Source of the DNA: Prochlorococcus marinus XMU1408
Lineage (GTDB): Bacteria > Cyanobacteriota > Cyanobacteriia > PCC-6307 > Cyanobiaceae
Direction: 5' to 3'
NCBI RefSeq assembly: GCF_003208055.1
Contig: NZ_QJUE01000006.1
Span: 62,001 to 126,000, forward strand
DNA: 64,000 bases
Position numbers and translations under genes: made by a program. Under the pieces are notes generated by a model that made no database searches, was not told the origin of the DNA, and saw only the letters and a program-made list of their open reading frames with translations. Below are positions 49,047 through 64,000 of this stretch, one piece after another. Within the stretch, counting starts at the first letter, position 1, and each line of letters starts with the position of its first letter.

Positions 49047-49078
49047 AAAGACTATTTACAGCAAAAAAGGTAGTCTTT
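49047..49078. terminator. Inverted repeat at the cysE / ABC permease convergent junction
   Basis: AAAGACTA (49047-49054) and TAGTCTTT (49071-49078) form an 8-bp stem around a 16-base loop, after the cysE stop and across the end of the permease gene. It is followed by a short T run on the plus strand. A modest candidate for a terminator serving one or both genes. Confidence 0.4.
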
Positions 49079-49835
49079 TACTCTCCAAATCAAGCAATCT
49101 AAAAGTAATAAAAAGACCGACAAAATTAAAACTTAAAATTAAAATTGAATTCTGGTAGTTAATTGAACCATTAATAATACTTAGCCTTAAAGGATCTAAA
49201 ATCTGATAAATAAAATTTAAATTTGTAATCCAAGATAAAGAACCTAAACTTTCTTTTGTATACAAAATTGGAGAAGTCAGAAAAACCAACTGAAGAACAA
49301 TAGGAACTAATTGAGCGATATCAGTAAAACGAACACTAATAAGGCAAACAATTACAGGGAACCAGTATATGAAAATTAAAAAATTAAAAAATGGTATCCA
49401 TGAATAAATTAATAGATTACTTATTAATGATAATTTGAAGAAAAGAAATACCAAAAAAACTAATATAAATGACTGAATGAAAGTTTGTACTTGAAAAGAC
49501 CATTCCTCTAAAGTATAAAAAATAGGCTTAAGATTCATATTCTTTATATTTGATGAATTATGTACAAATAAATTAGGTGAATTAGAAATTGATGAACTAA
49601 TTGTATTCCATATAACTAAGCCAAATCCTAGGTATATAAAGTAAGAACTAAAATTATCTACTGAAAAAACAGTACCATAAACAACTCCTAAAGTTCCTAT
49701 GGATAATAAATTAGATAAACCTAACCAAAAGCTACCAAGGGTAGTTCTAGCAAACCTTGCTCTAGACCTAGAGGTGGCTGTATACCACCAAGCCTTTCTA
49801 GTCTTAAAGGCAAATTTAAAATTATCCAATAACAT
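49056..49835 (-). CDS. ABC-2 type polysaccharide export permease (Wzm/KpsM-like)
   Basis: A membrane protein of about 259 aa with six hydrophobic segments and a short cytoplasmic N-terminus. The features RFARTTLGSFWLGLSNLL (about 26-43) and the late NLNFIYQILDPLRLSIING (near 215) match ABC-2 exporters for O-antigen or capsule. The frame opens at 49853 (MIIIVK); the second ATG at 49835 is equally likely and gives a 14-base overlap with the ATPase gene. The pair should export a lipid-linked or other complex glycan; the glycan itself is unknown. Confidence 0.88.
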   Translation of the reverse strand: MLLDNFKFAFKTRKAWWYTATSRSRARFARTTLGSFWLGLSNLLSIGTLGVVYGTVFSVDNFSSYFIYLGFGLVIWNTISSSISNSPNLFVHNSSNIKNMNLKPIFYTLEEWSFQVQTFIQSFILVFLVFLFFKLSLISNLLIYSWIPFFNFLIFIYWFPVIVCLISVRFTDIAQLVPIVLQLVFLTSPILYTKESLGSLSWITNLNFIYQILDPLRLSIINGSINYQNSILILSFNFVGLFITFRLLDLESKRLPFLL

Positions 49836-51198
49836 TTTTACGATAATAATCATGTGTATGATAATAATTCAAAGCAGCATCTAAAGGACCATCATATGCA
49901 ATTGAACCATGACTAAAAACAATACCTCTATTACAAAACTGTTTTAAAAGTTCTTCAGAATGACTTGCTAAAAACAATGTTGCTGCTGATTCCATAAATT
50001 GTTTCATTCTTTCTTCAGCGCGATCACAAAAATCGGCATCACCAGTACCAAAACCTTCATCTATTGCTAAACAATCATGCGGACTGGAAGTCAGAATTGA
50101 AAAAATTAATCTTGCAGACATACCCTCACTATAGGTTTTAATTGGTAAAGAGATATATGATCCGAGTCCTGAAAATTCTATTATTTCATTTAAGAAAGTT
50201 TCAAAACCTTTTAAGGTATGGTTTTTCAATAAATAGTGTGCTTTACAAGCATCGATTCCTGAAAGTTCTGAACTAGTTAGAAAAGTCTTTTGCAGCATCG
50301 GATAAACATCTACTAGAATTTTTATTTTTCCACTAGTAGGTAAATATATGCCAGAAATAAGTCTTAGAAAACTACTTTTACCAGAGCCATTATGACCAAT
50401 CAATGCAACTCTCTCTCCTTTCATAATCTTTAAGTTAATATTATTTAAAGCAATAATATTAGTCCTATTCTTTGATTGATCTAAGGCCCCACCTGTAATA
50501 TTAATAACCTTCTTTGCAACTCTCTTTGTTAAAGATCTATTCTCTAAATAATAAATAGGAATAGAAAGAGAAACACCTTTAATTTCAATTGCCGACTTAG
50601 TAAGTATATTTAACGAATCATCAGATAAAGAACTTATAAAGTCTTTTACATTTTCGTAAGAAACCTTTTCATGCGTAATATTAGCAAGAAAATTAGATAC
50701 TCTAATAAATGATTTTCCCGAGAGCCAAGGAGTAATTGAATCAGGTTTATACAAATTAATCAAAGTAATACTTTTACTTATTTGTTTAGTGAATATTTCT
50801 GAAGCAGAAGTTTTATTTTGGATAATATTAATATCTTTTTCCTCTTGATTGATATCAATTGAATAAGGTTTATTTTTAACGTATAATAAGTTATAGACAA
50901 TATCAGAAATTTGATAGTCTTTATTATTAACCATATCAATCCAATAATTCAAACCATCAAAATCAGCTTTCCTATTAAATAAATTTAAATATATTTTATT
51001 GATCTTAAATTCAAGAGATTTTTCATGAGCAACATACTTTGTATATTCATCTTGCCTAGATAATTCATTAGATATCTCTCTTAATGTAATTGATTCATTA
51101 GATCGTGAGAGCCAATAATTGATTCCAGATGGATCTCCAGGTCTTCCAAAATATGCTATGTATAATTTTTGCAAATCATTGGTATCAACATTGATCAT
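49822..51198 (-). CDS. ABC exporter ATPase (Wzt/KpsT-like) with N-terminal DUF4214-like repeats
   Basis: A 458-aa fusion. Residues about 8-110 contain two copies of the DUF4214 pattern, LYIAYFGRPGDPSGINYW (12-29) and IYLNLFNRKADFDGLNYW (69-86). A linker of about 100 residues follows. The ATPase of polysaccharide exporters spans about 205-450, with Walker A GHNGSGKS (268-275), signature YSEGMSARL (356-364), Walker B CLAIDEGFG (376-384) and H-loop ASHS. DUF4214 is otherwise known mainly from secreted surface proteins, so its place on a cytoplasmic ATPase is unusual. The gene overlaps the permease and follows secA on the same strand. Confidence 0.88.
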   Translation of the reverse strand: MINVDTNDLQKLYIAYFGRPGDPSGINYWLSRSNESITLREISNELSRQDEYTKYVAHEKSLEFKINKIYLNLFNRKADFDGLNYWIDMVNNKDYQISDIVYNLLYVKNKPYSIDINQEEKDINIIQNKTSASEIFTKQISKSITLINLYKPDSITPWLSGKSFIRVSNFLANITHEKVSYENVKDFISSLSDDSLNILTKSAIEIKGVSLSIPIYYLENRSLTKRVAKKVINITGGALDQSKNRTNIIALNNINLKIMKGERVALIGHNGSGKSSFLRLISGIYLPTSGKIKILVDVYPMLQKTFLTSSELSGIDACKAHYLLKNHTLKGFETFLNEIIEFSGLGSYISLPIKTYSEGMSARLIFSILTSSPHDCLAIDEGFGTGDADFCDRAEERMKQFMESAATLFLASHSEELLKQFCNRGIVFSHGSIAYDGPLDAALNYYHTHDYYRKNVIG

Positions 51199-51219: not shown

Positions 51220-54054
51220 TTATACTTCTACTTTTTTTTGAGCTGGCTGAAACATAAACATCGAATAAATTACATTCCTTCTCATATTTATCATCATATC
51301 TAAGAACATATCATATCCTTCATTTTTATATTCTATCAATGGATCTTTTTGACCATATCCTCTTAAGCCAACTGATTCTCTCAATGAATCCATTGACTGT
51401 AAATGATCTCTCCAAAGAGTATCTAATTGTTGAAGTATAAAGAATCTTTCAGCTTGCCTCATTATTCCTGGATGAGTTTGCTCTACTTGAGCTTCTTTAA
51501 TATCATAGGCATTTCTTAACTGTTCTTTTAAAAAATCTTTTAATTCATTTTTATTTAATCCAAGTAATTCTTCAGATTTGAGATCACTTAATAAATAAAT
51601 AAATTCTTTCACTTTAGAGACTAAATTGACCAAGTCCCATTCCTCAGGTGGTAAATCTTCATTAACATATGCTTCAACTATTTCTTCCATAGTTCTCTGA
51701 CCGTATCCGATGACTTGAAGTTTCAACTCTTTACCATCTAATACTCTTCTTCTTTCTGAATAAACCGCTTTTCTTTGATTATTCATTACTTCATCATATT
51801 CAAATATTTGTTTTCTAATATCATAATAATAAGTCTCTACTTTTTTTTGGGCTCCCTCTAAAGAGCGAGTAAGCATTCCAGACTCAATAGGCATATCTTC
51901 TTCAACCCTAAAAGCATTCATTAAACCTGCCACTCTATCTCCTCCAAAAATACGTAGAAGGTTATCTTCCAACGACAAGAAAAAACGTGTGCTTCCTAAA
52001 TCACCTTGCCTCCCAGATCTACCTCTCAATTGATTATCAACTCTTCTAGATTCATGACGTTCAGTTCCAATTACATGTAACCCGCCTGCTTGACGAACAT
52101 TTGTTTCTTCTTGATTTAAAACTACTTCATATTCTTTTTTTATTAATTGTATTGCGTTTCTTAATTCCTCGATATTTTTATCCTGTGTTGGTGTTTTCTC
52201 GGCAGCAGTAGCAATATAATCATCTAGCTCAATTGAACTAAGAGCTCTGTCACCCCATTCTTTGACTAATTTTGAGGCTAATGAAACTAGCTTTTGTTCA
52301 GTTTCTTCACTCAGCAATACAGGAAAAATATTTTTCAGCGATACAGATTGGATTTTTTTTGACCTTTTAGATTGTTGTTTCTCACTTTCACTAAAACCGA
52401 CTGACTCAGAGTTTCGTTGAAGAGGAATTGGAGGCTTATGACCTTCCTCAGGTTTTATTAAACGAGAACTAAGAATTTCTTTGATTTTCAATCTTGACAT
52501 ATAGTCGCTATTGCCTCCAAGAATTATATCCGTCCCCCTTCCAGCCATATTAGTAGCAATAGTCACAGCTCCTGAACGACCGGCTTGAGCAACTATTTCA
52601 GCTTCTCTTTCAACATTTTCAGGTTTTGCATTTAATAGATTATGAGGTATTTGTTGCTCCGACAAAAGAGTGCTTAACAGCTCACTCTTTTCAACACTTG
52701 TCGTACCTACTAGAACCGGCCTTCCTTGATTATGAATATCAGCTGTTTCTTTTGCTACTGCTCTCCATTTACCCGATTCAGTTTTAAAAACTTGATCAAC
52801 CCAATCTTCTCTTGAAATTCTGCGGTTGGTTGGCACAACAGTAGTTTCCAATTTATATGTTTTTTCAAATTCAACTTCTTCAGTCTTTGCAGTTCCTGTC
52901 ATACCTGACAGTCTGGGATATAGGAGAAAGAAATTTTGGTAAGTAATTGAAGCCAAAGTTTGAGTCTCTGGCTGAATAGGAAGATTTTCTTTAGCTTCAA
53001 TGGCTTGATGCTGCCCATCACTCCATCGTCTTCCAGGCATGACTCTACCTGTAAATTCATCTACGATTACCGCTTCTTTATCACGAACGATGTAATTAAC
53101 ATCTTTAACAAAAAGTTCTTTGGCCTTAAGAGCATTAGTTACATAATGAGCCCAAGGATCTTTTGGATCAAATAAATCTTTAACCTTTAAAAGCTCCTCA
53201 GTTTTAGCAAATCCTTCGTCCGTAAGGATACAACTCCTTTGTTTCTCATCTACTTCATAATCCCCCTCTGGATCAATTCCATCTTTACTGGTATCAATCG
53301 CCCTTTTTAAATTCTCTACAACTGCAGCAGCTTTTTGGTATTTTTCTTGCGGACGCTCAACTTGTCCAGAGATAATTAAAGGTGTTCTAGCCTCGTCTAT
53401 CAAAATCGAATCAACTTCATCAATTACACAAAATTGAAAATCTCTTTGAACAATTTCAGATTTATCAGCTGCCATATTATCTCGCAAATAATCAAATCCC
53501 AACTCAGAGTTCGTTGCATATGTAATGTCACAGGAATAGTTCTTTTTTCTTTCTGGAGGGGCCATAGATTGTTGAACTAATCCAACGCTAAGTCCAAGAA
53601 AGCGATGGATTTGCCCCATCCATTCAGCATCTCTTCTTGCTAAGTAATCGTTGACCGTGACCACGTGAACTCCTCTTCCTGTCAAAGCATTCAAATAACT
53701 GGGCAAAGTAGCAACCAATGTTTTACCCTCCCCTGTTTTCATCTCAGCAATTTGCCCTTCATGAAGAACCATTCCTCCAATCAATTGAACATCAAAATGC
53801 CTCATACCTAAAACTCTTTTCGAAGCTTCTCGAACTACAGCAAAAGCTTCGGGAAGCAAATTATCAAGCAAAGCAAGCTGTTCATCAAAAGAAGAAGTCT
53901 TTTCAAGCTTTATTCGAAAATTAGATGTTCGAGTTCTTAAATCTTCATCACTAATATTCAATAAATCCTCTTCCAAAATATTGATGTCTGTGACTAGTGG
54001 AGAATATCGCTTAAGTTTTCTCCCATTTGGATCTCCTAATAACTTTGCAAACAT
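51220..54054 (-). CDS. secA: Protein translocase ATPase SecA
   Basis: A 944-aa motor of the Sec pathway. The DEAD-type nucleotide site is [21 protein letters not shown] (about 101-121), Walker B is [21 protein letters not shown] (about 205-225), and [15 protein letters not shown] (about 513-527) is motif VI. The second nucleotide domain has [25 protein letters not shown]. The C-terminal zinc finger of many SecA proteins is missing; the protein ends [10 protein letters not shown], as in cyanobacteria. An insert of about 60 residues rich in Ser and Lys lies near 540-600. Confidence 0.98.
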
Positions 54055-54292: not shown

Positions 54293-55345
54293 GTGAGTCA
54301 AAACAAAACCGCTCTGATCACAGGCATAACAGGGCAAGATGGAAGCTACCTTGCAAAACTTCTACTTGAAAAAGGCTATGAAGTTCATGGAATGATAAGA
54401 CGATCTAGCCAAAAGAATACACAACTGATAGACAATCTCTCTCATTATGATCACAATCAAAAGCTTCAATTACACTATGGCGATTTAACACATAGCACTA
54501 ATATCCTTCGCATTATTCATGATGCCCAGCCTGATGAAATCTATAATTTAGGTGCCCAAAGTCATGTTCACGTCAGCTTCGATACCCCTGAATATACTGC
54601 CCAAACAGATGCACTTGGACCTTTACGGATACTTGAAGCTGTCAGAATACTTGGACTAACAAAAAAAACTAAGGTTTACCAGGCTAGTACATCTGAGCTG
54701 TACGGTCTAGTTAAAGAAACACCTCAAAACGAAAAAACACCGTTTCATCCAAGAAGTCCTTATGGAGTAGCAAAATTATATGCTTACTGGATAGTTGTTA
54801 ACTATAGAGAGGCATATGGAATGTTTGCTTGTAATGGCATACTTTTTAATCACGAATCACCAAGAAGAGGAGAGACTTTTGTTACGAGAAAAATCACTAA
54901 AAGTTTATCCAGAATAGAGTTGGGTCTTCAAGAATATTTAGATATTGGAAATCTTGAATCTTTACGTGATTGGGGGCATGCGAAAGACTATGTTGAAATG
55001 CAGTGGTTAATGCTCCAACAAAAAGAACCAAGAGATTATGTAATTGCGACTGGACAACAAATCTCTGTAAGAAAATTCATTGAACTTTCTGCACAAGAGC
55101 TCCAATGGGGAGATATCATTTGGGAAGGAAAAGGATCAGATGAAATTGGAAAAAGATCAGATAATAATAAAATCGTGATCAGAGTAAATAAAAAGTATTA
55201 TCGTCCTTCTGAAGTTCAAACATTAGTTGGAGATGCTAGTAAAGCTAGGCAAGAGCTTGGTTGGCTCCCTAAAATCTCTTTAAAAGAAATGATCTCAGAA
55301 ATGATAAAAAATGATTTAAATGAAGCAAAAAAAGAATTAAACTAA
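54293..55345 (+). CDS. gmd: GDP-mannose 4,6-dehydratase
   Basis: A 350-aa short-chain dehydrogenase making GDP-4-keto-6-deoxymannose, the precursor of GDP-fucose, GDP-rhamnose and related sugars. The NAD-binding motif [18 protein letters not shown] (about 9-26) and the active-site [10 protein letters not shown] (Tyr at about 157) are intact. [17 protein letters not shown] near 187 is specific to Gmd. The start is a GTG at 54293. It is separated from secA by 238 AT-rich bases, and followed by a 332-base gap. No GDP-fucose synthase is present in this window. Confidence 0.95.
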
Positions 55346-55876: not shown

Positions 55877-56605
55877 ATGTTAGAGACTTTAGATTGTCTA
55901 TCCAATAAATCTATTTTATTACTTGAAAAAAATAGACTTTTATTCCCTTTGATAAAAACTGAGCTAATAAAAAGCGAGCTAGATAATTTAACTATAGAGA
56001 AAGAGATAGAAAAAAAAAATATTGAGAAAATTAAAGAAAAATATGGATTAACTGATGATGAAAAGTTTGAAGAATGGCTAAAGTCTCAAAATTTGCAAAA
56101 AATTGAATTTGAGCATGCAGCTCTTCAAAATTTAAAGCTCCAAGAATTTTACCAACAGAATTTTTCAAACAAGTTAGATGCCAGATTTCTTAAAAGGAAA
56201 TCTCAATTAGATATCATCATTTACAGTATTATTAGAGTTAAAGATCCTTATAAAGCTCAAGAACTATATCAAAGGATTATCGAAAAAGAAGCTTGCTTCG
56301 AAGACCTTGCGGCCAAGTATTCAGAGGGGATAGAAAAGAGAACTAGAGGTATTGTTGGCCCAATTGAGGCAGCAAAAACACATCCTGGTGTTCTACAGAT
56401 TTTAAGAACAAGTGAGCCAGGCTTCATTAATCAACCACTGCAAGTACAAGGTTTCTATGTAGTGACCAGACTAGAATCTTATGATGCAGCTGAATTAGAT
56501 GAATTTATGCGAAAAAAAATGGGAGAAGAACTATTTAACGACTATATAGAAACTAAGTCTGAAGAGCTCAGACAAAATATCCTCAATAAAAACCCTGAAA
56601 AATAA
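55877..56605 (+). CDS. Parvulin-type peptidyl-prolyl cis-trans isomerase (SurA/PpiC-like)
   Basis: A 242-aa protein. Residues about 1-110 are helical, with the LKLQEFYQQNFSNKLDARFLKRKSQLD arrangement seen in SurA-like chaperone domains. About 113-205 form the rotamase domain (IIYSIIRVKDPYKAQELYQRIIEKEACFEDLAAKYSEGIEKRTRGIVGPIE). There is no signal peptide, so it should act in the cytoplasm. It sits 14 bases before the ABC transporter, consistent with a chaperone keeping a type I secretion substrate unfolded or competent. Parvulin genes occur next to type I secretion operons elsewhere, as I recall; the specific role here is inferred. Confidence 0.85.
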   Translation: MLETLDCLSNKSILLLEKNRLLFPLIKTELIKSELDNLTIEKEIEKKNIEKIKEKYGLTDDEKFEEWLKSQNLQKIEFEHAALQNLKLQEFYQQNFSNKLDARFLKRKSQLDIIIYSIIRVKDPYKAQELYQRIIEKEACFEDLAAKYSEGIEKRTRGIVGPIEAAKTHPGVLQILRTSEPGFINQPLQVQGFYVVTRLESYDAAELDEFMRKKMGEELFNDYIETKSEELRQNILNKNPEK

Positions 56606-56619
56606 TATAACTAATACAC

Positions 56620-59562
56620 ATGAATATTAATTTTAGAGAAATAGAAGCTTTTAAAAATATCGATGCAGCTAACATTGAAAAGTTAAAAGCAGATGCTCAA
56701 TTAATAAAATTCTCTCTTGGGCAGCCACTCTGCAAAAAAGAAATAATACCAAATAAAGTTTTTATTATTCTTCAAGGACAAGCAAGATTTCTTCATGATA
56801 ATGGTATGAGTTCTGAGACCATTGTCAAACTTAAACCAATTACTTTTGTTGGTCTTTCATCAATTTTAAGAGCTCATGGTTGCGAAGAAATCATGGCAGT
56901 TAATGAATTAATTGCCATAGGTTTATCTGATACAATTATTTTAGATTTATATGAAAATGATTTAAATTTTAGAGACTGGTGTCAAAGCAAAATTCAATTT
57001 CCTGAGATATATTCAATTGCGAATCATTTAAACGAAAATCTCCCGAAAAAAATATTTAATTTAAAAGAATTAATCAATATCTTAATAAAAAATATTAGAT
57101 TAAAATCAATTGTAGACGAAGAAATATTAGAACCAAAAGAAGATTACGTTAGCATTGCTGGAAGCGATAATATAGATGGATACAGACTTTATGATTTAAT
57201 TAATGTTAGAAAAAAAATTAGTATTAGGGGCAAACTGGATGGGAGAGTTTTTGAAATTCCTAAAGAGATTTATGAAAAAATATCTCAATTATCTAGTTCA
57301 ATAGATTCAAACAATGATACATTAAATAATGGGGATTTCTCAGTTTCAGATTCCGAATATACTAACCCTGATATTTATGAAACTGTTGAAGATATGGGTC
57401 AATATAAGAATAATAAGAATTTCAAAATTATACGTGCTAAAGGTGAATTAAGAGAAACAATTGCATGCTTACAAATGTTGGCGTCAGAATTAAATCTACC
57501 CTATAGAGTAGATGCAATTGATAAGATACTTCGCGACAATTTAACAAGTGGGAAGAAGCCAACTATACAACTTTTAGGAAGTATTACCTCTATGATGGGT
57601 CTCCGGAGTTTTGCAACAAAATTACCTGCAAAATTTGCAAATAGGCTTCCATCTCCATCATTAATTGTCTGGAAGGAAGCCTTTGCTGTTGTTAAAGAAA
57701 GCCGATCAGATTTTCTAGAAATAATTTCACCTAGTGAGGGTTCTATTAAAATTCAGCCTGAACACTTTAATGAATCTTTTCCTGAAGGATTTATTGAATT
57801 ATTGTCTGTAGAAAAGCACGAGCAAACACCTGAAGTAAAGTTTGGAATTCAATGGCTACTACCATCAATTAATAAATATAAAGGTGTTCTATCTCAAGTT
57901 TTGCTTGCCTCATTTGTTGTACAACTTTTTGGTTTAGCTAATCCATTAATGATTCAAATAATTATAGACAAAGTAATTAATCAAAGAAGCATGGATACTT
58001 TACAAATTCTAGGATTAGCATTAGTAGTTATAACTATACTTGGAGGAATCATAGGAAGTTTAAGAACATTTTTATTTACTGAAACTACCAATAGAATAGA
58101 TACAAGGCTTGGAGCAGAGGTTATAGATCATTTACTTCGTTTACCTCTAAATTATTTTGATCGAAGACCTGTAGGAGAATTAGGAAGTAGGGTTGCAGAA
58201 TTAGAAAAAATTAGAAATTTTTTAACTGGTCAAGCTTTAACAACAATTTTAGATGCAGCCTTTTCGCTCATATACATAATTGTAATGCTATTTTATAGCT
58301 GGTTACTTACACTACTTGCTTTAGGTGTAGTTCCTATTCAAATACTAATAACTTTAGTAGGGACTCCATTAATTCGAAGGCAAATAAGAGAGATTGCCCA
58401 AGAAAATGCAAAAACACAAAGTCATCTTGTTGAAATCTTAACAGGGATACAAACTGTTAAAGCTCAAAATGTAGAGAGAGTTAGTAGATGGAAATGGCAA
58501 GAGCTTTATAACACATATATTGCTAAATCTTTTCAGAAAACTATTACTGGAACAGCCCTTGGAGAGACTAGTCAAGTGCTTCAACAAATTTCGCAGCTTG
58601 TAGTGCTTTGGGCTGGAGCTTCTCTTGTTCTCAAAGGTGAGTTAACACTTGGGCAACTAATTGCATTTAGGATTATTTCTTCTTACGTGACTCAACCACT
58701 ACTAAGACTTAGTACCATATGGCAAAATATACAAGAACTAAGAGTATCCTTTGAAAGATTAGGAGATATTATTGATACTCCTGAAGAGACCTCAGATAAA
58801 GATAAAGAAAAAATTCCTTTACCAAGTATTACTGGTAATGTTGAATTTAAAAATATCTTTTTTACTTTTAACGATGATAAAGATGTAATTCTAAAAAATA
58901 TAAATTTAAAAATAAAATCTGGCCAGTTTGTCGGAGTTGTTGGGCAAAGTGGTAGTGGAAAAAGTACATTAATGAAATTACTACCGAGGCTTTATAAGCC
59001 TCAAGGTGGCAAAGTGCTGATTGATAATTACGATGTCAATAAAGTTGAACTTTATTCATTAAGAAGGCAGATAGGAATTGTCCCTCAAGAACCACTTCTA
59101 TTTGCTGGAAGTATCAATAGTAATATTGCTCTTACTGATCCAGAGGCACCAAGCGAGGAAATTGTTAAAGCCGCAAGAATTGCCAATGCTCATGATTTTA
59201 TTATGGATTTAAATGATGGCTATAGCACAAACATAGGAGAAAGAGGATCTGGACTATCGGGAGGACAGAAACAAAGAATAGCAATAGCAAGGACTCTCTT
59301 GAGCAATCCAAAGTTGTTAATAATGGATGAAGCTACAAGTGCACTTGATTATGAAACGGAAAGAAAAGTTTGCGAAGGACTTAGATCATCAAGTAAGGGT
59401 AGAACTGTATTTTTTATAACTCATAGATTAAGTACAGTAAAAAATTCAGATTTAATTTTAATGCTACATGAAGGCACTATTGTAGAAACTGGTACTCATG
59501 AAGAACTGATGAATCTCAAAGGAAGATATTTTGCTCTCTATTGCCAACAAGAGTCAAATTAA
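56620..59562 (+). CDS. Type I secretion ABC transporter with CNB-like and degenerate C39-like domains
   Basis: A 980-aa HlyB-type exporter. Residues about 12-125 resemble a cyclic-nucleotide-binding fold (FIILQGQARFLHDN). A linker follows, then a C39-peptidase-like domain at about 280-410 (AKGELRETIACLQMLASELNLPYR), in which the catalytic Cys and His positions are not conserved. It should therefore dock substrate without cleaving it. Six membrane helices lie at about 430-700. The ATPase has Walker A VGQSGSGKST (about 775), signature LSGGQKQR (about 878) and Walker B LLIMDEATSALD (about 900). The HlyD gene starts 5 bases after its stop. The most likely cargo is a large RTX- or adhesin-like protein. 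Confidence 0.93.
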   Translation: MNINFREIEAFKNIDAANIEKLKADAQLIKFSLGQPLCKKEIIPNKVFIILQGQARFLHDNGMSSETIVKLKPITFVGLSSILRAHGCEEIMAVNELIAIGLSDTIILDLYENDLNFRDWCQSKIQFPEIYSIANHLNENLPKKIFNLKELINILIKNIRLKSIVDEEILEPKEDYVSIAGSDNIDGYRLYDLINVRKKISIRGKLDGRVFEIPKEIYEKISQLSSSIDSNNDTLNNGDFSVSDSEYTNPDIYETVEDMGQYKNNKNFKIIRAKGELRETIACLQMLASELNLPYRVDAIDKILRDNLTSGKKPTIQLLGSITSMMGLRSFATKLPAKFANRLPSPSLIVWKEAFAVVKESRSDFLEIISPSEGSIKIQPEHFNESFPEGFIELLSVEKHEQTPEVKFGIQWLLPSINKYKGVLSQVLLASFVVQLFGLANPLMIQIIIDKVINQRSMDTLQILGLALVVITILGGIIGSLRTFLFTETTNRIDTRLGAEVIDHLLRLPLNYFDRRPVGELGSRVAELEKIRNFLTGQALTTILDAAFSLIYIIVMLFYSWLLTLLALGVVPIQILITLVGTPLIRRQIREIAQENAKTQSHLVEILTGIQTVKAQNVERVSRWKWQELYNTYIAKSFQKTITGTALGETSQVLQQISQLVVLWAGASLVLKGELTLGQLIAFRIISSYVTQPLLRLSTIWQNIQELRVSFERLGDIIDTPEETSDKDKEKIPLPSITGNVEFKNIFFTFNDDKDVILKNINLKIKSGQFVGVVGQSGSGKSTLMKLLPRLYKPQGGKVLIDNYDVNKVELYSLRRQIGIVPQEPLLFAGSINSNIALTDPEAPSEEIVKAARIANAHDFIMDLNDGYSTNIGERGSGLSGGQKQRIAIARTLLSNPKLLIMDEATSALDYETERKVCEGLRSSSKGRTVFFITHRLSTVKNSDLILMLHEGTIVETGTHEELMNLKGRYFALYCQQESN

Positions 59563-59566
59563 AATT

Positions 59567-60685
59567 ATGGATAATAAATTATTAAAAAAAATCTCAAAAA
59601 TCAACAAAAATTTTATTGTTAAAATAAATCCTAATCAGTTCATTACAAGTTTTAAGGGAAAGGTTAATTCAAAACACTTAATACAAAAATTCAATGGGAA
59701 ATTTAACTCTAATTTATTCGATCCAATACTCTTATTTCAGTTACTCCAGGATAAAGTAAATAATTTTGGACGCATTTCAAATAATAACCATGTAATTCTA
59801 TCTCAATCAAAATTCTGGGCCAGGACAATTACTTGGTTCATCATGGGAAGTGCAGGTTTTGCGGTAACTTGGCTTGCTGTTGCAGAGACTGATGAAGTGG
59901 TCATCGCTGCAGGAAAACTTCAACCTAAAGGTGGTGTAATTGACGTCCAAATGCCTATTGAAGGTGTAACGAGTAAAGTTTTAGTTAATGAAGGAGATTC
60001 TGTAAAAAAAGATCAAATATTAATTCTTTTAGATACTCAAATTACCGAATCCAGAAATAATTCTCTTCAAAAAAATCTTGAACTAAATAATATCATTGCA
60101 AAAAAATTAAGTTTGCTTGTTAAAGAAGGAGCAGTTTCAGAACTTCAATACTTACAACAACAAGAAAAGATAGAAGATATTAAACAACGTATTGCAACTA
60201 ATAGAGTGCAAATGAGTTATCAAGAAATCATTTCTCCAATTGATGGAATAGTATTTGATTTAAAGCCTAAGGGTCCAGGATACGTTGCAAGCACCAGCGA
60301 ACCTGTTTTAAAAATTGTGCCTAAAGATAATCTCCTAGCTAAAATTGATATTGATCCAAGAAAAATTGGCTTTGTAAAAGTAGGAAAAAATGCTGATATT
60401 AGTATTGACTCTTTTCCTGCATCGGATTTTGGCGTTATAGAGGGAACAGTGACGAGTATAGGATCAGATGCATTGCCTCCTAACCCAACAGAAAGAAAAG
60501 GATTTCGCTTTCCAGCAAAGATAACATTAAAGAATCAAGTTTTAAAACTTAAATCAGGAAAAACTCTTCCTCTTCAAGCAGGAATGAGTTTAACTGCAAA
60601 TATCAAACTAAGAAAAGTCACTTATTTGCAATTACTACTAAAGAAATTTAGTGATAAAGCAGATTCATTAAAATCTCTTAATTAG
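59567..60685 (+). CDS. HlyD-family membrane fusion protein
   Basis: A periplasmic adaptor of about 372 aa linking the ABC transporter to an outer-membrane TolC-type channel. A single membrane anchor is at about residues 83-105 (ITWFIMGSAGFAVTWLAVAE). Next comes a biotinyl-lipoyl half-motif (MPIEGVTSKVLVNEGDSVKKDQIL), a short helical hairpin of only about 60 residues, and a second half with IISPIDGIVFDLKP. The C-terminal barrel has FPAKITL and LQAGMSLTANIKLR. The hairpin is much shorter than in E. coli HlyD. The frame opens earlier at 59531, but the ATG at 59567 avoids overlap with the transporter gene. No TolC gene is in the window. Confidence 0.9.
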   Translation: MDNKLLKKISKINKNFIVKINPNQFITSFKGKVNSKHLIQKFNGKFNSNLFDPILLFQLLQDKVNNFGRISNNNHVILSQSKFWARTITWFIMGSAGFAVTWLAVAETDEVVIAAGKLQPKGGVIDVQMPIEGVTSKVLVNEGDSVKKDQILILLDTQITESRNNSLQKNLELNNIIAKKLSLLVKEGAVSELQYLQQQEKIEDIKQRIATNRVQMSYQEIISPIDGIVFDLKPKGPGYVASTSEPVLKIVPKDNLLAKIDIDPRKIGFVKVGKNADISIDSFPASDFGVIEGTVTSIGSDALPPNPTERKGFRFPAKITLKNQVLKLKSGKTLPLQAGMSLTANIKLRKVTYLQLLLKKFSDKADSLKSLN

Positions 60686-60692
60686 TCAATTT

Positions 60693-61925
60693 TTAGTTTA
60701 ATAATCTCTCAACCCATTCTATTTGTTTAGGCAAACAAATATTCTTTAAATCATAATTCTCTTTAGCATAATCTCTTGCATTATTACCTAGTCGTTCTCT
60801 ATCTTCAGGACTATCAAGAAGATGACAAACTTGATTAACCAAATTCTCAATATCAAAAAAATTAACTAATTTCCCAGTTTGATTATTTGCAATAACTTCA
60901 TGTAAAGGTTTCGTATCACTTGCCACAATTGCACAACCACAACTCATCGCCTCAATCAAACTCCATGAAAGAACAAATGGATAGGTCAGATAAATATGGA
61001 CAGTGGATAATTGAAGAAGAGGTAAAAATTTTTTATATTCGATATTTCCAAGGAAATGCACTCTTCCCCAATCGACGCTATCAATATGAGGCCGAACCTC
61101 TGCTGCAAAAATGTTTTTCCAGGTTTCTCCATTTTCAGGCCTTGTACCATAACTAACATCATCTCCACCAACTATAAGAATTCTTGCTTTGGGCCTCCGT
61201 TTAAGCAACTCCGGCAATGATCTCATGAAAATGTGATATCCCCTATATGGTTCCAAATTTCGATTCACAAAGGTAATCACCTCATCATTTTTAGTCAGTA
61301 CATGGTTTTGATTAATAGTCATTTGCACATTTTTATTAGGTATAACTTTTTGAGTATCAATACCATCGTGAATAACACTTATCTTTGATCTAAAGGATTC
61401 TGGGAAAGTACTAGCTTGCCAATGAGTTGGAGAAATTCCAGCATCCGCATCCTCAAATTGCAAAAGATGTTGCAAGTTCTTTAAACGCAATCTACAGACA
61501 TTCCCAACATCAAGAACTGGAAATTCTGGATCAAAATCAGTATCTGCTCCATTATTTAAATAAAAAAATTCACAATAGATACCAAGCTTCGCTTTAGGCC
61601 ATACTTCCTTCAAAAATAAACTTTCCCCCCACCCATGATGAGCAATGATTAAATCGGGATAAAATCCCTCTTTTCGCATAACTATTGCTTTCCTAAAACA
61701 AGCCTCACCTCTAATAATTTTGGTTTCAAAGTCAGTAACCCAAGGATGAATATTAGGCGTAGAAAAACGTTCGGCTTTATATTGAATAATTTCGATACCT
61801 TGCCACTTGTTTCCAAGACTAGGATTCATTGACATGGCAAATAAAGTATGACCTTTACTTAGTAAAAAGGGAGCTAAATGTCTAAACTGCCCAGGGAACC
61901 ATTGATGAATAAAAAGAATTTTCAT
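60693..61925 (-). CDS. Glycosyltransferase family 4-like protein
   Basis: A 410-aa GT-B glycosyltransferase. The N-terminal half begins KILFIHQWFPGQFRHLAPFL. The C-terminal half has FVNRNLEPYRGYHIFMRSLPELL (about 215-237) and the nucleotide-sugar motif SLIEAMSCGCAIVASDTKPLHEVI (about 323-346), with the E-x7-E-like pair. It is probably cytoplasmic, with no signal or membrane segment. The start overlaps the stop of the other glycosyltransferase gene by 4 bases, so they are co-translated. It converges with hlyD with 7 bases between stops. Donor and acceptor are unknown. Confidence 0.9.
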   Translation of the reverse strand: MKILFIHQWFPGQFRHLAPFLLSKGHTLFAMSMNPSLGNKWQGIEIIQYKAERFSTPNIHPWVTDFETKIIRGEACFRKAIVMRKEGFYPDLIIAHHGWGESLFLKEVWPKAKLGIYCEFFYLNNGADTDFDPEFPVLDVGNVCRLRLKNLQHLLQFEDADAGISPTHWQASTFPESFRSKISVIHDGIDTQKVIPNKNVQMTINQNHVLTKNDEVITFVNRNLEPYRGYHIFMRSLPELLKRRPKARILIVGGDDVSYGTRPENGETWKNIFAAEVRPHIDSVDWGRVHFLGNIEYKKFLPLLQLSTVHIYLTYPFVLSWSLIEAMSCGCAIVASDTKPLHEVIANNQTGKLVNFFDIENLVNQVCHLLDSPEDRERLGNNARDYAKENYDLKNICLPKQIEWVERLLN

Positions 61926-63619
61926 ATCAATTTATCTTCAACAACATTACCAAAATTATTTGGTTGATCTAATTTCATCAAAATGCCAATTTTGAGAAAC
62001 CAAGTCAAACTCCTAAAAATAAAAGATTGACGTTTTTCAGGAAATCTACTGATTATCTCTAGTGCTGATTGAGGAGCACTTTCTACTGCTTTCAAGATTT
62101 GATATATTTCATCATAACTTGGTAGTATATCTTTCGTAAAATTGACCATATCTAATTTAAAGTAGCTATCTAATCTTTGCATAGCTACTTGAAGGTCATT
62201 ATCAAGCAGGGAAAATAGTGTGTCTGTTGAAAGATTATATGTTGAATAATGTGAGAAAGAATGAAAAGGATCCATACGAGCAGGCCATGGATACTTCAAA
62301 GGTTTTAATTCTTTTACATGAGTCTCTCTGATATCTCTTAAACGCAACCAAAGCGATTCATATTTGGAAATTATCACTCTCCAATCATATGAATCTATTG
62401 CACGTTTTCTACCTGCCTTACCCATTTGACGTATTAAATCAGGTGAATCAAATAATTTGATAAATGCATTAGTAGCCTCTTTTACATCAACGGCAACTAA
62501 AGAAGAGGTTTTCCCACAATACATATCGTAAGTATCCAGTCCTAATGCATGGCGATATGATAAATCATTTCCCAAGCCAGCTGAAGGCATAGTTGTAGGA
62601 ATACGAAAACCATCTATTCCATCTCGCACTGTATCTTTATAGCCATCCCAATCAGAAACCACAACAGGAAGCCCTGCAGCCATGGCCTCAATAGGAGTAA
62701 TACCAAAAGTCTCCTGAATATTGTCGGAAAAAGAGCAGAAAATATCTGCACTCGCCCAAGCTAAATCTCTATTACTTTTATTCCGACCATCTAAATTTAA
62801 AACAGATATATTAGGACAACTCGTTTTAGCTGCTTCAACAAAAGCTTTCGCAATGTATTCATTTGCATGCCATCCACATTCAACAAGGACAACATTTTTA
62901 TTTGTAGCTTGAACTGCGGCTTCTAACGCTTGATACATCACCAAAGGATGGGCCTTAGCATGAAAAGACAATCGCCCCATAAAGAGAACAACAATTGCAT
63001 CGGATGATATTTGAAGTTCTTTGCGAGCAGAATCTTTTTGAAAAGGAGTAAATACGAAATCATCTGTGTGAATACCAAGAGGTATAACTGGTAGTTGAGG
63101 TAAAACAAATGTTGTAATTCCAAGTCTATTCCTAAGAAAATCAACCTGTGCTTGTAAGATATTTTCCACATTTGCTTTAGATGCATTACTAGTACAAATA
63201 AGACAATCCCAAGGGTAAATTGGACTTGAAATTAAATCAACAATCGCATCCATTGCTCTGATTGAAGATGTCGTATGTGTTATTCCACAAAGGCTCCATG
63301 ATCCATGTCGTTCAAGTGAAGCACGTCTAAAAGAATATTTAGAAATATCAGGACCTGGATAGAAGACTAAGCCAGATTCAGAGAGTGCGTTAAGAGAATT
63401 ATTGAAAATAGCTTTAACGGGTTCAGACCTTCCGAAAGAAAGTACTTTTTCTAAATATTCTTTTGCATACTTAGGATCATCTACAAGAACCCAAAATTCA
63501 TCAGTATTACTATGAGTTAAATATCCACGAAGAAATGATTCGCCAGCTGCATTTCTCCCCATTAATTTTGAACCAGAGGTGCTGTAGGCTTCAGGATGAT
63601 AAAAAATTGTTGAAATCAT
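61922..63619 (-). CDS. Glycosyltransferase (GT4-like) with long C-terminal extension
   Basis: A 565-aa GT-B protein. VVLFMGRLSFHAKAHPLVMYQALEAA (about 212-237) and ETFGITPIEAMAAGLPVVVSDWDGYKDTVRDGIDGF (about 305-340) are the acceptor-face and donor-binding motifs. After the core, about 130 residues (from about 425) form an extra helical domain I do not recognise. There is no membrane segment. It lies between the secreted-protein gene's terminator and the second glycosyltransferase, and both may modify that secreted protein or another surface glycan. The link is inferred from position only. Confidence 0.88.
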   Translation of the reverse strand: MISTIFYHPEAYSTSGSKLMGRNAAGESFLRGYLTHSNTDEFWVLVDDPKYAKEYLEKVLSFGRSEPVKAIFNNSLNALSESGLVFYPGPDISKYSFRRASLERHGSWSLCGITHTTSSIRAMDAIVDLISSPIYPWDCLICTSNASKANVENILQAQVDFLRNRLGITTFVLPQLPVIPLGIHTDDFVFTPFQKDSARKELQISSDAIVVLFMGRLSFHAKAHPLVMYQALEAAVQATNKNVVLVECGWHANEYIAKAFVEAAKTSCPNISVLNLDGRNKSNRDLAWASADIFCSFSDNIQETFGITPIEAMAAGLPVVVSDWDGYKDTVRDGIDGFRIPTTMPSAGLGNDLSYRHALGLDTYDMYCGKTSSLVAVDVKEATNAFIKLFDSPDLIRQMGKAGRKRAIDSYDWRVIISKYESLWLRLRDIRETHVKELKPLKYPWPARMDPFHSFSHYSTYNLSTDTLFSLLDNDLQVAMQRLDSYFKLDMVNFTKDILPSYDEIYQILKAVESAPQSALEIISRFPEKRQSFIFRSLTWFLKIGILMKLDQPNNFGNVVEDKLI

Positions 63620-63754: not shown

Positions 63755-64000
63755 TTATGCTCTAAATGTAGTCAAGTTAGCACTAACGATTGATGTCGCA
63801 TCAGTAACACCGGTGAAGGTAGCTATATCAGCAACAACCCAGTCAGTTAGGACTGCGTTTCCACCACCACCAGCTGTAGTTGCAATAGCAGCTGTAGTGT
63901 TTGTTCCATCATCATAGAAAACAAGGATACCGTCACCAGCAATAAAGGTAGCTGCAACAGTTAAGTTTGATCTCATATCTGCTTGTAACTCTGAAGCACT
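63755..64000 (-). CDS. C-terminal end of a probable large secreted surface protein
   Basis: The frame is open to the window edge and 81 codons are visible. The sequence is rich in Ala, Thr, Gly, Val and Asp, has no Cys, Met-poor and Lys-free over long stretches, and ends in VSANLTTFRA. The pattern VAATFIAGDGILVFYDDGTNTTAAI with a following ADIATFTGV resembles the C-terminal domain of cyanobacterial beta-strand-repeat surface proteins that I recall being called bluetail. An ATG at 63976 would give only 73 residues, and I do not take it as the start because the frame continues upstream without a stop. Uncleaved C-terminal signals are typical of type I secreted proteins, such as the nearby system would export. 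Confidence 0.72.
   Translation of the reverse strand, partial: SASELQADMRSNLTVAATFIAGDGILVFYDDGTNTTAAIATTAGGGGNAVLTDWVVADIATFTGVTDATSIVSANLTTFRA

Follow-up and report, generated by a model that had tools for sequence, protein, structure and literature searches.

A DUF4214 module fused to a Wzt-type export ATPase in Prochlorococcus and its possible role

In the 64,000-nt stretch of the Prochlorococcus marinus XMU1408 genome analyzed here (the window, whose numbering applies to all coordinates unless an L or G locus is named), one gene joins a Wzt-type ATP-binding cassette (ABC) ATPase to an N-terminal module with two DUF4214 repeats (Table 1). This architecture is firm. Judged by its domain matches, the product is the ATPase of a Wzm/Wzt exporter, and the fusion is confined to one genus among the genomes searched. 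The module appears to have come from the N-terminus of a large surface-type protein, and we tentatively favor a role for it in reading sugar at the cytosolic face of the exporter.

Domain structure of the fused ATPase

A sequence-only reading of the window had described a polysaccharide-export ATPase fused to DUF4214-like repeats, and the Pfam scan bore this out. ABC_tran (PF00005) matched residues 251-381 with 56.1 bits (cut-off 25). DUF4214 (PF13946), the family named in that reading, matched significantly, with 32.0 bits over the whole protein in two stretches (E 1.3e-7; gathering cut-off 23.2) and with 35.3 bits when residues 1-196 were used alone; as the score is above the cut-off, a chance motif was rejected. 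Residues G268-K274, S357-M360, D380-E381 and H413 of the ATPase were among the invariant columns of 27 aligned rows, including the window's own. The best curated model for residues 204-449 was NF050108, a galactan Wzt, at 190.5 bits, which is under the cut-off of 400 and too low to assign galactan as the cargo. The protein ends only 9 residues past the ATPase match, and no match to Wzt_C was found in it at E up to 1.

In a structure search with the whole model, ranks 1-25 were TagH/TarGH/teichoic acid, Wzm-Wzt or KpsMT entries. Among the nearest folds were those of the WzmWzt exporter of Aquifex aeolicus (8dne_C, 8dku_A and 7k2t_C), which likewise pairs a Wzt ATPase with a Wzm permease. In this O-antigen exporter, the known parallel, a C-terminal jelly-roll domain reads a methylated cap (PMC9445017), whereas the fused Wzt has no C-terminal domain and carries a helical module at its N-terminus. 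In an earlier survey of export genes in cyanobacteria, KpsT/Wzt proteins are listed under two Pfam domains, ABC_tran and Wzt_C (PMC4594306). The fused protein is more like the Wzt/TagH kind that has no C-terminal reader, to which its best model, NF050108, and the near folds 9a4o_B (a TagH model) and 9qhx_C (the Mycobacterium abscessus Wzm-Wzt 9qhx) belong, although the fold matches cover the ATPase part only, about 250 columns, and the model's cut-off was not reached. As the best 50 rows of this Foldseek search were all ABC ATPases, the module was predicted and searched alone.

The two motif copies claimed in the sequence-only reading are present, as Y13-x3-F17-x-R19-x2-D22-x2-G25-x-N-Y-W29 and Y70-x3-F74-x-R76-x2-D79-x2-G82-x-N-Y-W86, but three residues, not four, separate Tyr from Phe. 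The module was also placed too short at residues 1-115: in the alignment with relatives, the conserved unit reaches about residue 175 and includes a Y-x-P-x-S-x2-P-W-x2-G stretch at 150-161. All 26 aligned relatives carry the module, a count that is not independent, since they were chosen by matching it. Structure prediction, which had been proposed as a check, gave a compact helical domain for residues 1-196 alone, folded with confidence (predicted local distance difference test score, pLDDT, 91.8; predicted template modelling score, pTM, 0.90). Across 37 aligned copies, of which 27 come from ATPases and 10 from large open reading frames (ORFs), Y13, F17, R19, E51, N72 and D122 do not vary. 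Over the 25 closest of 315 usable pairs, the median ratio of non-synonymous to synonymous substitution rates (dN/dS) was 0.077 in the ATPase, 0.088 in the permease and 0.255 in the module; in the N-terminal module (N-module) of the large ORFs it was 0.186 (21 of these 25 pairs). The module is under purifying selection.

Distribution of the fusion and origin of the module

An N-module match at 1e-12 was detected in 33 of 41 genomes of the genus, and a fused frame in 30, one of them (G310) cut by a contig end. The remaining 11 comprise G206, in which the fused frame is broken, and ten with none, all drafts of 51-87% completeness, two of which (G290 and G314) carry the large-ORF module only. All 17 genus genomes that are at least 90% complete gave the N-module match, and 16 have an intact fused frame. 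A full-length profile (threshold E 1e-70) was also run against a sample of 300 genomes of the family, including 24 of the genus, and matched 72. The full-length fused form was found in 21 of these, all among the 24; at the same threshold, no unfused ATPase was found in the other 3. The remaining 51 genomes, from 31 other genera, match only from residue 175-203 onward, in an ATPase that lacks the module, so that the ATPase is spread more widely than the module.

In the ten unfused orthologues scanned, all with ABC_tran, neither Wzt_C nor DUF4214 was found; that of G037 has about 110 residues of its own ahead of the match, with no domain assigned. The sequence-only reading had set the N-terminal module against the C-terminal glycan domain usual in Wzt proteins. 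No such domain occurs here, but because the ten unfused orthologues also lack one, the module was added, not moved. In three genomes of other genera (G062, G298 and G243), secA is followed by a wzt that encodes 254-255 amino acids (aa) and then by wzm; in G062, cysE comes next, as in the window. The simplest reading is that the line leading to this Prochlorococcus genus gained the module by insertion at the junction of secA and wzt.

Matches that begin only at residue 175-203 in other genera would also be expected if the true protein started near residue 200, as the sequence-only reading had itself considered, and the module were an artefact of the assigned start codon. We rejected this explanation, which is extremely improbable: the open frame is conserved across the genus, in its fused form in 21 of the 24 genomes, its median dN/dS indicates purifying selection, and its ATG lies 21 nt past the stop codon of secA. 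It is also improbable, if less so, that the module is a captured passenger that folds but does little, a spacer kept after a chance fusion. It does change about three times faster than the ATPase, and in G056 the first repeat has lost the motif. Against this stand the fused frame in 30 of 41 genomes, the lack of an unfused ATPase in the 24 examined, a dN/dS well under 1, and the six residues kept in all 37 Wzt and large-ORF copies.

Beyond the cyanobacteria, we searched plasmid records and made one genome-contig scan. The scan gave near-full-length matches at 15 loci (L006-L020), all Prochlorococcus, and matches to the ATPase part only at 5 further loci. L008 and L009 are two orientations of one contig (G301:C31) with identical scores, likely an assembly palindrome. 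The fused protein matched 861 plasmid records, none of which covered 80% of it, and among 244 genomes of the phylum, a full-length match at E 1e-60 occurred in two, the own genome and G056, which is of the same genus. The fusion as a common Wzt architecture was rejected, as it was not seen in the plasmid, phylum or genome-contig searches.

Residues 1-175 are homologous to the N-termini of large ORFs, with E values down to 2e-42 within the genus, and the alignment shows the same two repeats and third segment. In the own genome, one such N-terminus belongs to an RTX protein (L057:14756-18397) whose gene enters the end of the window (PF00353, 91.4 bits in six stretches). Its calcium-binding nonapeptide repeats and the HlyB and HlyD genes at 56620-60685 mark it as an RTX protein of the kind secreted by type I systems. 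Among four large ORFs of the genus that were scanned, RTX repeats passed the cut-off in this one, were sub-threshold in two (L060 and L064) and were not seen in one (L059:14161-18309); outside the genus, two of three had them. Several NCBIfam RTX models, including toxin families, matched the repeat-rich part of the own-genome protein far under their cut-offs (best toxin score 84 of 1000 bits), and on these scores it gives no sign of being a toxin.

Fifteen other DUF4214 carriers were scanned for partner domains. Ten had one at or above the cut-off (RTX repeats, trypsin with cadherin, metalloprotease, esterase, or cyclophilin with cadherin), three had sub-threshold matches to the same kinds (L071, L060:15156-18269 and L064:4021-8721), and two had no other domain (L075 and L059:14161-18309). 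By the kinds of domain they bear, these proteins look exported, in keeping with what had been said of DUF4214 from the sequence, whereas here the repeats sit on a cytosolic ATPase. Some carry DUF4214 C-terminally or internally, beside the trypsin, cadherin, metalloprotease, esterase or cyclophilin domains. Loci L061, L062, L065, L068, L072 and L073 hold clusters of ORFs with a C-terminal DUF4214, where a type I secretion signal would sit; two of these ORFs, when scanned, proved to be an esterase and a serralysin-like protein. At such C-termini, DUF4214 might have a double role, as surface tether or secretion aid. On another contig, the own genome encodes an 882-aa protein (L058:5972-8620) that combines trypsin and cadherin domains with two stretches of DUF4214; one of these is of the same type as the full N-module.

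In a midpoint-rooted tree of 89 modules, 28 of the 29 Wzt modules (G310 was omitted for coverage) grouped together (98/90), and one type of large-ORF N-module from the same genus joined them (80/91); modules of other cyanobacteria were placed elsewhere, and G056_Wzt and G302_Wzt were long branches. The large-ORF modules form types that do not follow the genome tree. The simplest reading of these sequence relationships is one capture of a large-protein N-module by Wzt, in the ancestor of the genus, and this history is well supported. The fused Wzt of G056 (L066:2242-3600), with its module on a very long branch, lacks the DP-G-YW motif in its first DUF4214 repeat, and the same genome has a 3900-aa frame bearing the N-module. 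When the RTX module was searched against plasmids, it matched 76 records; nearly all of the best 60 were annotated as DUF4214 proteins, and none of these 60 was an exporter. The sole phage record matched by the RTX N-module was an annotated protease of EBPR siphovirus 2 (JF412297.1:3921-4301; E 4e-10). A search for close relatives of the module in viral contigs found none, and a viral fold library gave one match at 3.3e-6, to an unnamed protein, and weaker matches to viral DUF4214 proteins.

The gene cluster and its natural losses

The exporter, a dehydratase, a type I secretion system and the large protein are linked (Table 1).

Table 1. Features of the fused gene and its neighborhood in the window
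Feature	Coordinates	Strand	Remarks
Wzm-type permease (ABC2_membrane)	49056..49853	minus	PF01061, 34.3 bits, cut-off 26.9; start overlaps end of ATPase gene
Wzt-type ABC ATPase with N-terminal DUF4214 module	49822..51198	minus	458 aa; ATG at 51198
ABC ATPase domain, residues 204-449	49852..50589	minus	Walker A, signature and H-loop conserved; no C-terminal sugar-binding domain
N-terminal module, residues 1-175	50674..51198	minus	homologous over full length to N-termini of large surface-type proteins
Third helical segment with Y-P-S-PW-G stretch, residues 116-175	50674..50853	minus	common to N-termini of the large proteins
DUF4214 repeat 2, residues 62-107	50878..51015	minus	best Pfam stretch 66-93; predicted helices
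DUF4214 repeat 1, residues 6-57	51028..51183	minus	motif; predicted helices; two Pfam stretches
secA	51220..54054	minus	21 nt upstream of ATPase gene; same neighbor in G062, G298 and G243 of other genera
GDP-mannose 4,6-dehydratase	54293..55345	plus	539.6 bits, cut-off 415
PpiC-type rotamase	55877..56605	plus	beside secretion genes; Pfam
HlyB-type type I secretion ATPase/permease	56620..59562	plus	Pfam/NCBIfam
HlyD-type periplasmic adaptor	59531..60685	plus	Pfam/NCBIfam
Glycosyltransferase (Glyco_trans_4_3, Glycos_transf_1)	60693..61925	minus	Pfam
Glycosyltransferase (Glycos_transf_1)	61922..63619	minus	Pfam
RTX protein gene, 3' end	63755..64000	minus	1213 aa; start outside, at 67396 in window numbering (L057:14756-18397); N-terminus with same module

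The best NCBIfam model for the permease was NF050109 (Wzm), at 87.9 bits under a cut-off of 380. Past the RTX gene lies a second dehydratase-like gene (237.3 of 415 bits), and in the cluster of G130 a 1217-aa glycosyltransferase comes next. In all 21 genus genomes with both on one contig, 14.0-34.6 kb separate the Wzt module from the large-ORF module, the large ORF being near HlyB/HlyD and glycosyltransferase genes; in 6 more genomes the two are on different contigs. Outside the genus, an unfused wzt lies 22-43 kb from a clear N-module in three genomes (G037, G062 and G298), which suggests that the tie between exporter and large protein is older than the fusion. G058 has a marginal N-module match (E 1.5e-4), unlinked to wzt.

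Ahead of its transporter part, the HlyB-type protein carries a C39-peptidase-like domain, and its N-terminus gave a sub-threshold match to a cyclic-nucleotide-binding domain. Between the dehydratase and the type I secretion genes, relatives encode a protein that is about 390 aa long and ends in a DUF4214 (L059:7426-8604, L060:6562-7740, L063:6996-8144, L099:13116-14294 and L198:6488-7663), which is metalloprotease-like where scanned (L059); there is no such gene at this place in the window. It recalls the S-layer-associated protease of Caulobacter.

G206, a genome 95% complete, has stops in both wzt and wzm. One C-terminal DUF4214 fragment was found in it, with no dehydratase at 1e-30 and no large-ORF module. 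The best HlyB match in it has 45% identity, whereas those in G056, G161 and G146 have 61-68%. These joint losses support one functional unit, with the reservation, which holds equally for G272 below, that draft genomes may miss genes. The combined lack of a working exporter and of the large-ORF module in G206, like the presence of the RTX gene, two glycosyltransferases and the exporter in one cluster, would also fit an exporter that carries a lipid-linked glycan for the large surface protein, as in glycosylation of the S-layer type, with the module marking or recruiting the protein acceptor. Type I secretion substrates leave the cytosol before folding, and contact between protein and exporter would be only brief; moreover, no oligosaccharyltransferase was among the proteins scanned, no genome search for one having been made. 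We consider this explanation quite improbable.

What the module may bind

RsaA was picked for testing before the fold search, because its N-terminus anchors the S-layer of Caulobacter crescentus by binding O-antigen (PMC6978808). With the module alone, Foldseek returned no PDB match at E 0.001 or better. In a second fold comparison, two families stood above the rest, phycobilisome linkers and RsaA, the best unrelated entry having a Z of 2.3. The match to the RsaA N-terminal domain was collinear over residues 1-173 of the module, of which 1-170 aligned with 53-240 in 6z7p_A (Z 4.6; root-mean-square deviation (rmsd) 4.1; 135 residues aligned), and was also seen with 6t72_A (Z 4.4, rmsd 4.2, 139 aligned); these rmsd values were the lowest in the fold list. 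The Pfam RsaA domain starts at residue 57, about where the fold match starts. Like the module, the RsaA domain is helical and N-terminal on a surface protein, but it is not part of an exporter and has no significant sequence likeness to the module. Weak as it is, the fold likeness to an O-antigen-binding domain speaks for the recognition of a glycan that the sequence-only reading had suggested.

Several results weigh against a role like that of RsaA, and against sugar reading as part of one unit with the large protein. Phycobilisome linkers outscore RsaA (2ky4, 3ohw, 2l3w and 3pru; Z 5.5-5.7, rmsd 4.7-6.4, 110-117 aligned), one linker entry aligning 142 residues at an rmsd of 5.9, and all Z values here are weak for a helical fold, since by the tool's own guidance a Z below 8 (below 13 for helical folds) may reflect a common arrangement. 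Pfam holds RsaA_NTD as a separate family, PF19198, for which neither the Wzt nor the RTX module gave a match at E up to 10 and whose cut-off was passed in none of 121 genomes, the Caulobacter control being detected. An hhalign comparison of the module with RsaA gave P 0.36, and profile scores against RsaA were no better than those of shuffled controls, of which 160 of 1975 and 755 of 1801 scored as high. A sequence link between module and RsaA was thus tried in four ways and not found; the search for RsaA homologues on plasmids also gave no match. Among the unfused genomes, 47 of 51 show no N-module, so the exporter does not require it. Finally, in G272 (87% complete) neither DUF4214 nor Wzm was found, yet a dehydratase (69%) and a diverged HlyB (51%) are present elsewhere in the genome, and parts can therefore persist without the exporter.

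If the two modules shared a variable sugar ligand, their distances should correlate beyond the species tree. A partial Mantel test covered 25 of the 29 genomes, 4 having been dropped because coverage was low or a partner was missing. For co-divergence of the two modules, r was 0.25 (p 0.04), and it was 0.29 (p 0.02) against the ATPase. Without the outlier G056 (24 genomes), r fell to -0.03 and -0.02, and no co-divergence was seen. This counts against a shared variable ligand, but not against a shared invariant one.

Phycobilisome linkers join proteins and bind phycobiliproteins. Their rank at the top of the fold matches is the chief point for a close rival, in which the module docks to a protein and thereby keeps the exporter close to the machinery of synthesis or secretion; the partner could be the large surface protein itself, a glycosyltransferase or a second DUF4214 module. 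The module also matches the ApcE linker faintly in sequence (E 0.012), which points the same way, and its faster evolution relative to the ATPase would fit a varying partner. The linkers, however, match at a higher rmsd than RsaA, and their Pfam family, PF00427, was absent among the matches of residues 1-196 at E up to 10. Docking has no known partner, the lack of co-divergence with the large-ORF module speaks against it, and a domain that occurs beside many different exported domains would need either many docking partners or one common one. We regard docking as somewhat unlikely, and favor instead the reading of sugar by the module, a distinct possibility that we would still place just short of even.

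Under this sugar-reading proposal, the cargo is probably a polysaccharide whose synthesis needs the neighboring GDP-mannose dehydratase. In the ancestor of the genus, Wzt would have gained, most simply once, the N-terminal module of the large surface protein from the same cluster. Outside the cell, the module, as a putative sugar binder, would attach the large protein to polysaccharide of the same cell, in the way that the Caulobacter S-layer is held to O-antigen by the N-terminus of RsaA. On Wzt, at the cytosolic mouth of the channel, it would hold the same polymer and start or pace its export, in a transporter that has no C-terminal cap reader. In its full form, which we put forward as a speculation with the chances against it, one lectin-like domain would read the same polymer on both sides of the envelope, pinning the surface protein outside and certifying the polymer for export inside, a Wzt without a cap reader having taken over the anchor of a polymer-wearing surface protein.

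The fusion bears on the question of how ABC exporters that have no C-terminal cap reader select their polymer and pace its export. We found no published account of a DUF4214-Wzt fusion in the open-licence literature, judged mostly by titles. The fused protein offers a candidate polymer reader on such an exporter. The domain capture behind it can be traced, and the unfused orthologues next to secA allow a comparison. For DUF4214, a domain of as yet unknown function, the fusion suggests a possible role, and it points to a surface coat of polysaccharide and RTX protein in Prochlorococcus, an abundant phototroph of the ocean.

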